Below are positions 38,613-42,824 of a DNA stretch of 64,000 nt, in pieces. Below the pieces are notes generated by a model. It was given only the letters and a program-made list of their open reading frames with translations. It ran no database searches and had not been told where the DNA came from. Source of the stretch: Leisingera daeponensis DSM 23529 (GTDB lineage Bacteria > Pseudomonadota > Alphaproteobacteria > Rhodobacterales > Rhodobacteraceae). Positions within the stretch are counted from its first letter, which is position 1. Each line of letters begins with the position of its first letter. Position numbers and translations under genes: made by a program. Location of the stretch: assembly GCF_000473145.1 (NCBI RefSeq), contig NZ_KI421500.1:620225-684224 (forward strand). Reading direction: 5' to 3'.

Positions 38613-39419
38613 CTAGATATCCAGTTCGACCCAGACCGGCACGTGATCGGACGGCTTTTCGCGGCCGCGCACGTCCTTGTCGATCTGGCAGTCCAGCAGC
38701 AGGTCGGCGGCCTGCGGCGTCAGCAGGATATGGTCGATGCGGATGCCGTCGTTGCGGTTCCAGGCGCCGGCCTGGTAGTCCCAGAAGGAATAATGCCCCG
38801 GCCCTTGATGGCGGGCACGGAACGCTTCGGTGAAGCCCAGGTTGACGATCCGCTGGAACGCGGCGCGGCTTTGCGGGCGGAACAGCGCATCCTCCGCCCA
38901 GGCCTCCGGCCGCTTGGCATCCTCGGCCTGCGGGATGATGTTGTAATCGCCCGCCATCAGCGCCGGCATCTCATCGGCCAGCAGCGCCGCGGCGCGGGCC
39001 TTCAGCCGCTCCATCCAGGCGAGTTTATAGGCGTATTTGCCGCCCGCCACCGGGCTGCCGTCCGCCTCCAGCTCCACCGGGTTGCCGTTGGGCAGGTAAA
39101 GACCGCAGATCCGGATCGCCTGCTTGCCCGTCACGGTGGCCTCGATCCAGCGCGCCTGCTCGTCGCTGTCGTCGCCGGGCAGGCCGCGGCGCACGTCCTC
39201 CAACGGCAGTTTCGACAGGATCGCCACCCCGTTGAAACTCTTCTGGCCGTGCGTCTCCACGTTATAGCCGCGCTCCTCGAAGATCTCGCGCGGGAACGCC
39301 TCGTCCACCGATTTGATTTCCTGCAGCACCACCACGTCCGGCTGCGCCTCATCCAGCCAATCCGGCAGCGCCTGGGCCCGGGCCTTGATGCCATTGATAT
39401 TGAAGGTGGCGATTTTCAT
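38613..39419 (-). CDS. xthA: Exodeoxyribonuclease III
   Basis: Predicted 268-residue AP endonuclease / 3'-5' exonuclease of the EEP superfamily, acting in base excision repair. Motifs are intact: MKIATFNINGIKAR, VVVLQEIKSVDEAFP with the metal-binding glutamate, LYLPNGNPVE, MAGDYNIIPQ with catalytic Asp and Asn, IRIDHILLT and SDHVPVWVEL with the catalytic histidine. The length equals E. coli XthA. Single gene, divergent from the repeat-protein locus across a 360-base gap. Confidence 0.96.
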   Translation of the reverse strand: MKIATFNINGIKARAQALPDWLDEAQPDVVVLQEIKSVDEAFPREIFEERGYNVETHGQKSFNGVAILSKLPLEDVRRGLPGDDSDEQARWIEATVTGKQAIRICGLYLPNGNPVELEADGSPVAGGKYAYKLAWMERLKARAAALLADEMPALMAGDYNIIPQAEDAKRPEAWAEDALFRPQSRAAFQRIVNLGFTEAFRARHQGPGHYSFWDYQAGAWNRNDGIRIDHILLTPQAADLLLDCQIDKDVRGREKPSDHVPVWVELDI

Positions 39420-39779: not shown

Positions 39780-40322
39780 ATGACTGCTCAGCGTAAAACC
39801 AAGGACTTCAGCGCAACCCGTCCGGCCGCAGGCGCAAGCCTGTTTGCGGGCGATGCCACAGAGATGTTCTCCTCCGGTTCGGCTCCCGGATGCACTGCGG
39901 ACCTGGCTGCAGGGGAGGGGGCATCGCTGTTTTCGTCCGGCTCCGCGCCCTCGGCCAGCGGCGGAACCGCAACCGGCGATCTGGTGGAGATGTTCTCCTC
40001 AGGGTCGGCGCCGGCGGCGCAAGGTGACACTGCCGCAGGTGATCTGGTGCAGCTGTTTTCCTCAGGATCTGCCCCGCAAGCACAATCAGAAGTTGCCGCA
40101 GGCGATCTGACAGAGATGTTTTCTTCCGGGTCCGCCCAGGCGGCGGGTGAAACTGCGTCGGGGGATCTGACGGAAATGTTCTCCTCCGGCTCGGCGCCCG
40201 CGGCAACGGCAGAGACCGGCGCAGGCGACGGCACGCATCTGTTCTCCTCCGGGTCCGCACCGGCACCGGCGGCGCGCACCTGCACTGGCGATGCGACCCG
40301 GCTGTTCTCTTCGGGCAGCTGA
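39780..40322 (+). CDS. FSSGSAP tandem-repeat protein (precursor-like)
   Basis: Predicted 180-residue protein with no signal peptide and no membrane span. After a basic leader, MTAQRKTKDFSATRPAAGAS, the whole protein consists of eight repeats of 20-21 residues with consensus GD-(L/A/G)-(T/V)-x-(M/L)-FSSGSAP-A-x4-(T/A), ending exactly at FSSGS. Two cysteines occur in spacer positions. The repeat codons differ widely among copies for the same residues, so the pattern is maintained at protein level and not by recent duplication. ATG 39780 follows GGGG; the frame is open to 39702. A DUF6749-type family may apply, from memory and unverified. It heads a three-gene unit with a hairpin behind it, as structural or precursor-peptide genes often do. 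Confidence 0.75.
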   Translation: MTAQRKTKDFSATRPAAGASLFAGDATEMFSSGSAPGCTADLAAGEGASLFSSGSAPSASGGTATGDLVEMFSSGSAPAAQGDTAAGDLVQLFSSGSAPQAQSEVAAGDLTEMFSSGSAQAAGETASGDLTEMFSSGSAPAATAETGAGDGTHLFSSGSAPAPAARTCTGDATRLFSSGS

Positions 40323-40329
40323 CCGGGAC

Positions 40330-40353
40330 GGGGCCGGTCTCCCTCCCGGCCCC
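40330..40353 (+). promoter_or_regulatory. Hairpin after the repeat gene
   Basis: A perfect 8-bp GC stem GGGGCCGG / CCGGCCCC with an 8-nt loop lies 7 bases past the stop and has no U-tract. It may stabilise the repeat-gene mRNA or partially terminate, giving an excess of the repeat protein over downstream products. Confidence 0.6.
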
Positions 40354-40417
40354 TGACCTTGAGCGGCTCCGGTTTCCGGGGCTGCCGCCGCGCCGTACCC
40401 ATCCGCAAGAGGTTCCC

Positions 40418-41479
40418 ATGGCCCAGATCATCCCGTTTTTCTCTCCTGCCGCCCGCCAGTCCCGGGCCGATGCGCAGGGGGCGCTGGTCACCAGCTTTGC
40501 AACCTGCCGGCGCAGCCAGGAGGACGTGTTCTGGCTCAAGGAAAATGCGGAGCTTCTGAACATCCTTGAAAGCACAGGAGCGGATGTGAAAGCAGAGGCC
40601 CTGGCGCCCTTGCAGCCGTTTTACGACGGCGCGGCACGCCACATCAGTTTCTTCCGCCAGTACTACCGCTTCATCTTGTCGATTTGCCTGGATCTGGAGG
40701 ATCTGGGCCTGCCGGGGCAGACCGGGGCGCAGATTGCCGAGTGGGTTTGCGCCCAGGGGCTGGCCGGGGCAGAGCTGTCGGACCTGCAGCGCGCCGAGGC
40801 CCGCCGCCTGCTGGCGCGGCGCGGCATTGCCGTGCGGGACGACGGGCTGGACGACCGGCTCCGCAGCTTTATTTCCCGCCCGCAGACCTTTGCCATTCCC
40901 AACAAAAAGGCCGCCTACGAGCTGACCCATATCGTGTTCTACCTGTCCGAGTACGGGCGCCGGGATCCGGGGCTGCCGGCGGCTGCCGTGACCAGCCTCG
41001 AATTCGCGGGTCTGGTGGCTTTTCTCGATCAGAATGCCGACCTTCTGGCGGAGATCTGCATCGCCATGCGCTATGCCGGGCAGCAGCCGCCAGCCGCCTG
41101 GGAGGCTTGGCTCGACGGGCAGGTTTCCGCTTATTTGCTCGCTAAGGATGAATTTTCTGGACTCCACGATGCGTATCACGAGTATTTTGTAACCAACTGG
41201 CTCATGCTGATGTCCGGCCGTCCGGCCTTCAGGCAGCCGGTCCCCTTGGGGGCGGTGCATGTGTCGGCGCAGCAGGGAGGGAGCATCTTGAGGAGCCTGT
41301 CTGAAGCCGTGTTTGATGCGGGAATGGCGCGGGCCAGCTGGAGCGCGGTGAAAGCGCGCGCCGAGGCGGCGCTCAGCGAGGAGCAGCACCGCATCCTGAC
41401 CGCGGCAGAACGCAGCTGCGCCGGGTTTGCCGGATTTTTCGAAGGTTTTGCCCGCGCGGGCAGCGCAGGGGCGGCGTGA
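40418..41479 (+). CDS. Unrecognised helical protein downstream of the repeat gene
   Basis: Predicted 353-residue, mostly alpha-helical soluble protein; AGAGG precedes the ATG. I do not recognise a characterised domain; from memory it may belong to a Rhodobacterales-restricted family (DUF6902-like), unverified. Notable segments are ARHISFFRQYYRFILSICLD (residues about 73-92), PNKKAAYELTHIVFYLSEYG (161-180) and LHDAYHEYFVTNWLMLMSG (249-267). H75, H171, H250 and H254 with nearby acidic residues could be metal or substrate ligands. An AYELTHxVFYL segment in a helical repeat fold recalls proteins found next to modified-peptide genes, a weak analogy. Its TGA overlaps the next ATG, so it is coupled to the transporter. 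Confidence 0.65.
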   Translation: MAQIIPFFSPAARQSRADAQGALVTSFATCRRSQEDVFWLKENAELLNILESTGADVKAEALAPLQPFYDGAARHISFFRQYYRFILSICLDLEDLGLPGQTGAQIAEWVCAQGLAGAELSDLQRAEARRLLARRGIAVRDDGLDDRLRSFISRPQTFAIPNKKAAYELTHIVFYLSEYGRRDPGLPAAAVTSLEFAGLVAFLDQNADLLAEICIAMRYAGQQPPAAWEAWLDGQVSAYLLAKDEFSGLHDAYHEYFVTNWLMLMSGRPAFRQPVPLGAVHVSAQQGGSILRSLSEAVFDAGMARASWSAVKARAEAALSEEQHRILTAAERSCAGFAGFFEGFARAGSAGAA

Positions 41480-42390
41480 TGCGCGGTTCCCGCAACCAGG
41501 CGCTGGCCGGGGCGCTGCTGGTGGTCGCTTATACCGGGCTGATTGCCTCTGCCGACGGGATCACCAAACTGCTTGCGGGCCAATACGCAGCGGCCCAGCT
41601 CTATGCGCTGTCCGGGGCCATGGTTGCGGGGCTGTGCCTGTTGGCGGACCGGCTGCCCGCCGTGCGCGGCGGCTTCCGCACCAAGTGCCCGCGGGCGATG
41701 GCCCTGCGCTCCGGCGCCACGCTGGTTGCGGCGGTGTGCTTTTTCTATGCCTTCCGGCTGCTGCCCTTTGCCGAGGTGTTTGTGTTCATCGGTCTGATGC
41801 CGCTGCTGGCGGGGGCCATGTCCGGGCTGGTGCTGAAGGAGCCGGTGCGCCCGGCGGCCTGGGCGGCGCTTGGCGCTGGATTTGCAGGGGTGCTTTTCCT
41901 GTTTCCGGGCGGGGTTGCCTCCGCCACGCCGGGCCATCTCGTTGCTTTGGCCGCGGCGGTCTCCGGCACATTTTCCATGACACTGGCGCGGTTTATCGGC
42001 CGTTATGAAAGCAATTCTCTGGCTCAGGTCTTTTATCCCAACCTGACCCTTTGCCTGGTGATGCTGGTGCTGCTGCCCTTTGTCTGGGTCCCGATGCCGC
42101 TGGCGGATGCGGGCTGGGCTGCGGCTTATGCTTTCCTGCTGTTCGGGGCGCGCTGGCTATTGGTGGTGGCGCTGCGGCTTCTGGCTTCCTACGCCGTCAC
42201 GCCGCTGATGAATTTGCAATTCATCTGGATGGCGGTGATCGGCGCGGTGTTCTTTGGTGAGTTCCCGCCCGCTGCCACCTATTTCGGCGGTGCCATCGTC
42301 ATTGCCTCGGGGCTTTATCTGGTCTGGGACCAGTTCGCCCCCGCGGCGCCGCGGCTGCGCAATCCTGGACGGCTGCAAACCGATCCGTGA
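41479..42390 (+). CDS. EamA/DMT-family transporter
   Basis: Predicted 303-residue inner-membrane transporter with ten hydrophobic helices arranged as two EamA repeats (first about residues 8-140, second about 150-285). The second ends FIWMAVIGAVFFGEFPPAAT, with the conserved glutamate after G-x-x-F-F-G-E. DMT proteins export metabolites, amino acids or nucleotide sugars. The ATG at 41479 shares a base with the upstream stop (TGATG), giving strict coupling to the 353-residue gene. That makes it the likely exporter of the product of the locus, though DMT proteins are not known to carry large peptides. It could instead export a small-molecule product. Confidence 0.85.
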   Translation: MRGSRNQALAGALLVVAYTGLIASADGITKLLAGQYAAAQLYALSGAMVAGLCLLADRLPAVRGGFRTKCPRAMALRSGATLVAAVCFFYAFRLLPFAEVFVFIGLMPLLAGAMSGLVLKEPVRPAAWAALGAGFAGVLFLFPGGVASATPGHLVALAAAVSGTFSMTLARFIGRYESNSLAQVFYPNLTLCLVMLVLLPFVWVPMPLADAGWAAAYAFLLFGARWLLVVALRLLASYAVTPLMNLQFIWMAVIGAVFFGEFPPAATYFGGAIVIASGLYLVWDQFAPAAPRLRNPGRLQTDP

Positions 42391-42500: not shown

Positions 42501-42824
42501 TCACATTGAGAACGAGGTGCCGCAGCCGCAGCTGGATGTGGCGTTGGGGTTTTCGATGGTGAACCGCGCGCCGATCAGCTCTTCGGTAAAATCAATCACC
42601 GCGTTTTCCAGGAACGGCAGCGACACGGCGTCGACCACCACTTTTTCACCCTGTCCCTCAAGGACCAGATCATCGGGTTTCGCCTCGTCCAGGGCGATCT
42701 CATACTGGAAACCGGAGCAGCCGCCGCCTTCGACCGCGACTCGCAGCGCCTGGCCCTGATCCGCGGCGCCGATCTCGGCCAGCCGGGCAAAGGCGCGGTC
42801 GGTGACTTTCGGGGGCAGGTTCAT
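42501..42824 (-). CDS. erpA: A-type iron-sulfur carrier (ErpA/IscA family)
   Basis: Predicted 107-residue HesB/IscA protein that accepts and passes on Fe-S clusters. The three conserved cysteines are in GGGCSGFQYEI and SSCGCGTSFSM. The family core VTDRAFARLAEI and the acidic central part are complete. A-type carriers ErpA, IscA and SufA are hard to tell apart from one sequence; the isolated location outside an isc or suf cluster favours ErpA. It is divergent from dgt with a 90-base shared upstream region. Confidence 0.88.
   Translation of the reverse strand: MNLPPKVTDRAFARLAEIGAADQGQALRVAVEGGGCSGFQYEIALDEAKPDDLVLEGQGEKVVVDAVSLPFLENAVIDFTEELIGARFTIENPNATSSCGCGTSFSM

Follow-up and report, generated by a model that had tools for sequence, protein, structure and literature searches.

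Several groups of ribosomally synthesized and post-translationally modified peptides (RiPPs) are made from multi-core precursors, among them cyanobactins, graspetides, dikaritins and plant cyclopeptides, where the core copies are split by recognition or linker elements. The cassette described here lies in a window of 64,000 nucleotides from Leisingera daeponensis DSM 23529 (contig NZ_KI421500.1, positions 620,225 to 684,224), the window being the whole stretch of DNA analysed. It consists of genes for a repeat precursor, a DUF6902 protein and an EamA transporter. Two enzymes serve as points of comparison. A DUF6895-family lasso-peptide epimerase is known from the title of Shi et al. (ACS Catal. 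2026), as cited in PMC13352647; MslH, according to PMC10406935, is an epimerase that acts on the ribosomal precursor of the lasso peptide MS-271 and uses two His/Asp pairs as acid and base. In the window, a precursor gene with a putative leader and a conserved core stands beside a dedicated, presumably modifying, enzyme gene, and a RiPP-type cassette is very likely. The fuller proposal, a multi-core system whose DUF6902 protein modifies each core, with epimerization the likelier of several reactions, is probable. A sequence-only reading had already suggested a multi-core modified-peptide operon, a suggestion now supported by co-occurrence, by copy-number variation with a fixed core and by kinship with DUF6895.

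The precursor gene (39780..40322, forward strand) encodes 180 amino acids: an N-terminal stretch starting MTAQRK is followed by eight repeats of 20 or 21 residues with the core FSSGS. A repeat search finds the eight copies in register, with start spacings of 63, 63, 63, 63, 60, 63 and 63 nt. Positions taken from the sequence place the first core, with AP after it, at 39867..39881; copies 2-8 start at 39930, 39993, 40056, 40119, 40179, 40242 and 40305 on the same forward strand, and copy 8 (40305..40319) is immediately followed by the stop codon. The earlier description of eight FSSGSAP-centred repeats is thus accurate as to the core, FSSGS being present in 8/8 copies; six read FSSGSAP, one reads FSSGSAQ, and in the last the protein ends at FSSGS. 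At the DNA level no two of the eight 15-nt core stretches are alike, yet they encode the same five residues, and the proportion of differences among them is 0.74 at silent sites (pS) and 0.05 at amino acid-changing sites (pN). By judgement, chance alone would hardly give eight identical cores in frame and at one spacing. The repeat protein has no Pfam or NCBIfam assignment (best Pfam E 0.01, under the cut-off), and a hydrophobic signal peptide is not visible by eye, no predictor having been run. A search of the organism's own genome with a core-DNA pattern was too loose: the pattern matched 176 times forward and 157 times in reverse, while a control gave 171 and 175.

How closely are the precursor and DUF6902 tied to each other? 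In a survey of 295 genomes of the same family, nearly one per genus, DUF6902 is found in 82; it is also found in all 21 genomes of the same genus, the window's own counted. At the class level it exceeds the cut-off in only three of 289 genomes, all three in the window's family; a fourth match, in another family, is under the cut-off. Among the DUF6902 proteins listed, the closest are from Leisingera, with 94% identity to L. aquaemixtae. Of the 83 places with DUF6902, 80 loci were read, leaving aside the window and two contig fragments. A repeat open reading frame (ORF) stands directly upstream at 77 of the 80, or 78 if L068 is counted, where the upstream ORF is N-masked, yet the precursor profile matches the same spot. 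The core was picked by eye in eight of the 77 ORFs, and five carry two copies only. The median gap from precursor end to DUF6902 is 73 nt; at L049, the repeat ORF stops 343 nt ahead of DUF6902, with an extra stretch between.

A precursor profile of three repeats (A3), for which 39 of the positive loci served as input, matches 76 of the 82 genomes with DUF6902 and none of the 213 without it (Fisher p 5e-64, treating genomes as independent); the 76 positives are partly so by construction, and the zero among 213 is the independent part. The sequence-only reading had proposed asking whether homologues of the two proteins co-occur, and by this measure they do so almost strictly. Six DUF6902 genomes are unmatched by A3 (G039, G099, G139, G264, G283 and G288); in G099, G264 and G283 (loci L103, L105 and L116), odd repeat precursors are visible by eye.

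The core is conserved within a precursor and changes between lineages. The 77 loci carry 39 core types, e.g. FSSGS, FTSGA, FTSWS and FCSAS, and further FTNWC, FTTSM, FITSC and FTSGL; with few exceptions one precursor has one repeated core, and the cores differ between lineages. In 66 precursors with four or more copies, the window's own and those of 65 loci, the medians within precursors are a core pS of 0.52, a core pN of 0.043 and a spacer pN of 0.53, the core pN being inflated by the Ser AGY/TCN codon switch and deflated by the selection of copies at four or more of five matching residues. Such a pattern, a low core pN with a high core pS, would follow from the core itself being the product. 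Entropy was computed for the 70 precursors that have three or more copies under the same matching rule. At core positions +1 to +4 after the F it is 0.00-0.02 bits within a precursor and 0.86-1.95 between precursors; the F at position 0 has 0.18 bits within precursors and hardly any variation between them, and the consensus has G at -6 in 68/69 precursors and P at +6 in 60/67. The lineage-specific part is therefore x-(S/T)-x-x, set between shared recognition-like flanks. The precursor ends on a core in 47 of 77 cases (76 loci and the window), four of these ends being a core variant.

A DUF6902 tree of 80 rows, made by a quick method, has good support for 11 of its 77 inner branches; across its 77 labelled rows, the core must have changed at least 51 times. 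The near relatives L049 (FCSAS) and L050 (FSSGS) differ in every copy (pair support 87, unstarred). In the window's own genus, where variation in repeat number had been suggested as a check, the 21 precursors have 4 to 10 copies and the core stays FSSGS; YSSGS replaces it in one or two copies of seven precursors, and FFSGS in a single copy of one. Single-residue core variants are seen in L066 and L075. Closely doubled cores eight residues apart, e.g. FTSGLVQMFTSGL, occur in L046, L052, L057 and L067, an architecture unlike the repeat of 20 or 21 residues. At the N-terminus, M-x-A-(L/Q/I)-x-K is present strictly in 40/77 precursors and loosely in 53/77, as counted from starts that were chosen by script and are in some cases cut off by contig ends; the N-terminus may work as a leader.

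The second gene (40418..41479, forward strand) encodes 353 amino acids. The sequence-only reading placed this helical protein correctly and could not assign it; the latter no longer holds, as it exceeds the Pfam cut-offs for two families. It matches PF21843 (DUF6902) with E 1.2e-144 and 482 bits (cut-off 27) over profile positions 1-351 of 351, and PF21836 (DUF6895) with E 5e-24 and 85.6 bits (cut-off 23.8) over positions 20-238 of 289. Compared by hhalign, DUF6902 and DUF6895 give E 1.8e-7, in alignment A2, whose L134 row covers part of the protein only. In alignment A5, of 12 DUF6902 and DUF6895 sequences, Y167, H171, D208, E212 and H254 are invariant and Y253 is nearly so; on this alignment, the stretch encoding the five (40916..41179, forward strand) is a candidate active site. 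The models of both families appear to resemble (alpha/alpha)6 toroids, over residues 12-271 of the window protein by VIA-align; the fold claim mainly rests on the DUF6895 model, which was compared by VIA-align only. In a sequence search of solved structures, the best hit was the outer-membrane protein OprN (E 0.017), taken as chance. The gene is thus a candidate for a core-modifying enzyme, probably an epimerase. It had been held against the peptide proposal that no recognised modifying enzyme is present; this argument is weakened by the relationship to DUF6895, a family reported, as far as the title goes, with a peptide epimerase.

Some DUF6895-type genes elsewhere also adjoin peptide genes. 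Peptide genes of 65-143 aa immediately precede them in L133, L134, L135 and L212: two paralogous 65-aa peptides in L133 (Rhizobium sp. CF122), peptides of 143 aa in L134 and 138 aa in L135, with two repeats each, and one of 78 aa in L212. By eye, these peptides share a leader-like '(S/A)GI(I/V)(D/N)...L..L' and an aromatic end like WYVY, WYIYK or WAFIVKGKFVFK. The sets are small: five loci from one scan, one of which is the same Rhizobium genome, and the matches of two further scans, one of them at class level, from which L131 and L132, under the cut-off, were left out. The Rhizobium locus (L133:2918-6720) holds a papain-like C70/C39 protease, the two 65-aa peptides, DUF6895 and a helical-looking protein that has no Pfam match. 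The ends of the L134, L135 and L212 peptides are rich in Trp, Tyr and Phe, unlike the Ser-rich cores of the DUF6902 systems. In Actinophytocola oryzae (L208:3599-3781) and Streptomyces physcomitrii (L209:3561-3749), peptides of 61-63 aa with a conserved ELTEDVEALL and an end ...LLLSPPTPR lie about 0.7 kb upstream of DUF6895, leaving space for one more gene; these possibly represent another RiPP-type family. Two DUF6895-like frames in a row are present in L208. In two more genomes of the window's own family (L137, L138), repeat precursors with an STSSF core are found.

The cassette occupies a fixed chromosomal site. In the window, it is flanked on the left by a gene of exonuclease III type (38613..39419, reverse strand; Pfam Exo_endo_phos E 7.2e-33), presumably xthA, and on the right by a HesB/ErpA-type gene (42501..42824, reverse strand; Pfam Fe-S_biosyn E 2.9e-18), presumably erpA. 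Both are outside the cassette, and only three co-directed genes lie between them: the precursor, DUF6902 and the EamA/DMT-family transporter (41479..42390, forward strand; 303 aa, EamA E 7.2e-12), a candidate exporter of the product. As had been noted, the transporter's ATG overlaps the preceding TGA stop, by one base. There is no additional enzyme gene within the cassette, and no lasso cyclase or leader peptidase gene between xthA and erpA, the interval to which that search was confined. Among the other loci, xthA is upstream at 74 of the 75 that have more than 1.5 kb of flank, erpA is downstream at 69 of 80, and EamA is found at 61 of the 77 whose flank is long enough, two of the EamA proteins being only 26% and 30% identical. 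At 14 of 18 EamA-less loci examined, erpA follows DUF6902 by 14-100 nt, and thus the transporter can be lost. For comparison, 20 listed genomes among the 213 that lack DUF6902 gave 18 close xthA loci. At 15 of the 18, erpA is within 1.5 kb of xthA (30 to 1347 nt), and at these 15 no DUF6902 or EamA match is present near xthA. In such genomes xthA and erpA are near neighbours, and the simplest account is that the cassette has been gained or lost as a whole at this single chromosomal location.

Between precursor and enzyme gene there is a GC stem-loop (GGGGCCGG / CCGGCCCC, 40330..40353, forward strand), identified from sequence and fold, with eight pairs, an 8-nt loop and no T run. The hairpin noted earlier after the first gene is thus present, and unremarkable against shuffles in the window: the whole-region z is -1.05, and the best stem-loop, scored on another stem than 40330..40353, has p=0.059. 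At related loci, stem-loops are enriched (p<=0.05 at 33/75, mean z -1.21), the test covering 75 loci after three short gaps were dropped. Neither a sigma-70-like promoter consensus nor an Rfam match was found. An attenuator or a 3'-end stabilizer is a possible role for the stem-loop.

How might such a cassette work? The first gene would encode a single precursor, a short leader followed by eight tandem FSSGS cores, that is made in bulk, the hairpin possibly favouring precursor over enzyme. The conserved G-(D/E)-x-x-x-(M/L) element ahead of each core may be a recognition or cleavage site, and every core in turn would be processed by the DUF6902 protein, whose fold is probably that of an (alpha/alpha)6 toroid. 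Given its kinship with the DUF6895 lasso-peptide epimerase, DUF6902 would most likely invert an alpha-carbon in the core, via the two invariant His with Asp/Glu; on this analogy, the chance that the reaction is an L-to-D epimerization appears about even. A protease encoded outside the cassette would then release small peptides from the chain, with export by EamA or by a housekeeping carrier.

Alternatives differ in how much of this they retain. The cassette could be of RiPP type with DUF6902 carrying out a different reaction on the core, for instance dehydrating, cyclizing or lipidating it at its conserved Ser/Thr, which seems rather unlikely: the closest family with a reported reaction is an epimerase, as its title states, and the window cassette holds no other enzyme gene. 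At 58 of 77 loci the core lacks Cys, which rules out thioether rings or Cys prenylation as a general reaction; a prenyltransferase reading of DUF6902 was lowered for the same reason. A more radical departure, an improbable one, is that the repeat protein works intact as a structural, surface or storage protein, with DUF6902 as chaperone or anchor. Low-complexity Gly/Ser/Ala repeats and a free copy number (1 to 20 exact cores per precursor) fit this; spacers that diverge with the core fixed, and cores that switch together between close relatives, do not, nor do the lack of a signal peptide by eye and the unrelated short peptides that adjoin several DUF6895 relatives.

Could core identity instead reflect recent tandem duplication or gene conversion only, and not selection on a product? 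Some arrays are almost identical head to tail, e.g. L041, L063 and L086, and for a few young ones this is in part true. It is unlikely for most arrays, and as a general explanation very improbable, as 64 of 66 have silent-site core differences (pS of at least 0.2) with a core pN of at most 0.17 and adjoining spacers of median pN 0.54, and all eight window cores differ in DNA. A toxin-antitoxin or defence pair, with the repeat protein as toxin or decoy neutralized by DUF6902, would account for the two-gene linkage and the presence or absence between genomes, but is scarcely credible for a cassette at a fixed site among housekeeping-type genes, in no mobile island, kept in 21/21 genomes of the genus and with enzyme-like invariant residues; none of the three cassette proteins matches a PADLOC defence model at E<=0.01.

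Several observations weigh against the multi-core RiPP proposal. No peptidase gene lies inside the window cassette, a doubt that the sequence-only reading had raised and that stands, and 16 of the 77 loci whose flank is long enough have no EamA gene. The DUF6902 genes of L102 and L119 have no upstream repeat precursor, the latter being a divergent DUF6902 with 25% identity. Two cores are mixed in four precursors (L082, L094, L095 and L096). Foldseek against the PDB gives no match to the DUF6902 model at E<=0.001, and the toroid fold serves many chemistries. Finally, no clear peptide gene is seen beside DUF6895 at the Microtetraspora loci L206 and L207, or at L136, a locus of the window's family with a short DUF6895-like frame. 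As for the mixed precursors, in L082, L094 and L096 an end copy reads FSSGS or FTSGS and a different core stands in the interior; these precursors could be in mid-switch or make two products. At Microtetraspora, a subtilase is found upstream in L206 and L207, in L206 as an S8 subtilase directly before DUF6895 (L206:2947-4461).

The wider significance depends on the proposal being right. It would add a new RiPP-type family in roseobacters, the window's group and a major one among marine bacteria, with about a hundred precursor/enzyme pairs to test, and would join two Pfam families of unknown function, DUF6902 and DUF6895, to one chemistry. Concerted core switching together with silent-site divergence is an unusually clear evolutionary marker, in which the product would be readable from the genome. 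In many lineages the core copies appear to have changed together to a version of their own, as if to a private chemical password; with its locus fixed and its words lineage-specific, the cassette looks more like a means of communication or recognition than a mobile antibiotic cluster. One may go further, tentatively and with more doubt than confidence, to an old, vertically inherited roseobacter cassette that makes a lineage-specific D-residue peptide as a private signal or self-recognition word, DUF6902 and DUF6895 then being a barrel-shaped peptide epimerase superfamily with many unrelated precursors across bacterial phyla.

A literature search returned no paper naming DUF6902 and one naming DUF6895 only, and no title or abstract start describing this system, subscription papers being mostly outside its coverage. 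Cellobiose, glucose and N-acetylglucosamine 2-epimerases are (alpha/alpha)6 barrels; they act on sugars, share 7-10% identity, and are absent from the best VIA-align rows for the DUF6902 model. MslH differs in being a calcineurin-like metal enzyme of another fold, with a C-terminal Trp as substrate (PMC10406935). The DUF6895 lasso-peptide epimerase is closest, as a member of a homologous family that its title ties to ribosomal peptides; the five invariant residues are those of the DUF6902 and DUF6895 sequences aligned here. As differences, the window cassette has no lasso cyclase and its substrate would be a tandem multi-core protein, and the window protein falls in DUF6902, a separate branch, and carries additional sequence at its C-terminus. 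Compared with cyanobactins, graspetides, dikaritins and plant cyclopeptides, the cassette is distinguished by the absence of any further enzyme gene and by a core of about five residues between Ala/Ser/Thr-rich spacers. The kind of system, a tandem-core precursor with a modifying enzyme, is already known; the family, the enzyme branch and the lineage-wide concerted switching of cores appear to be new.

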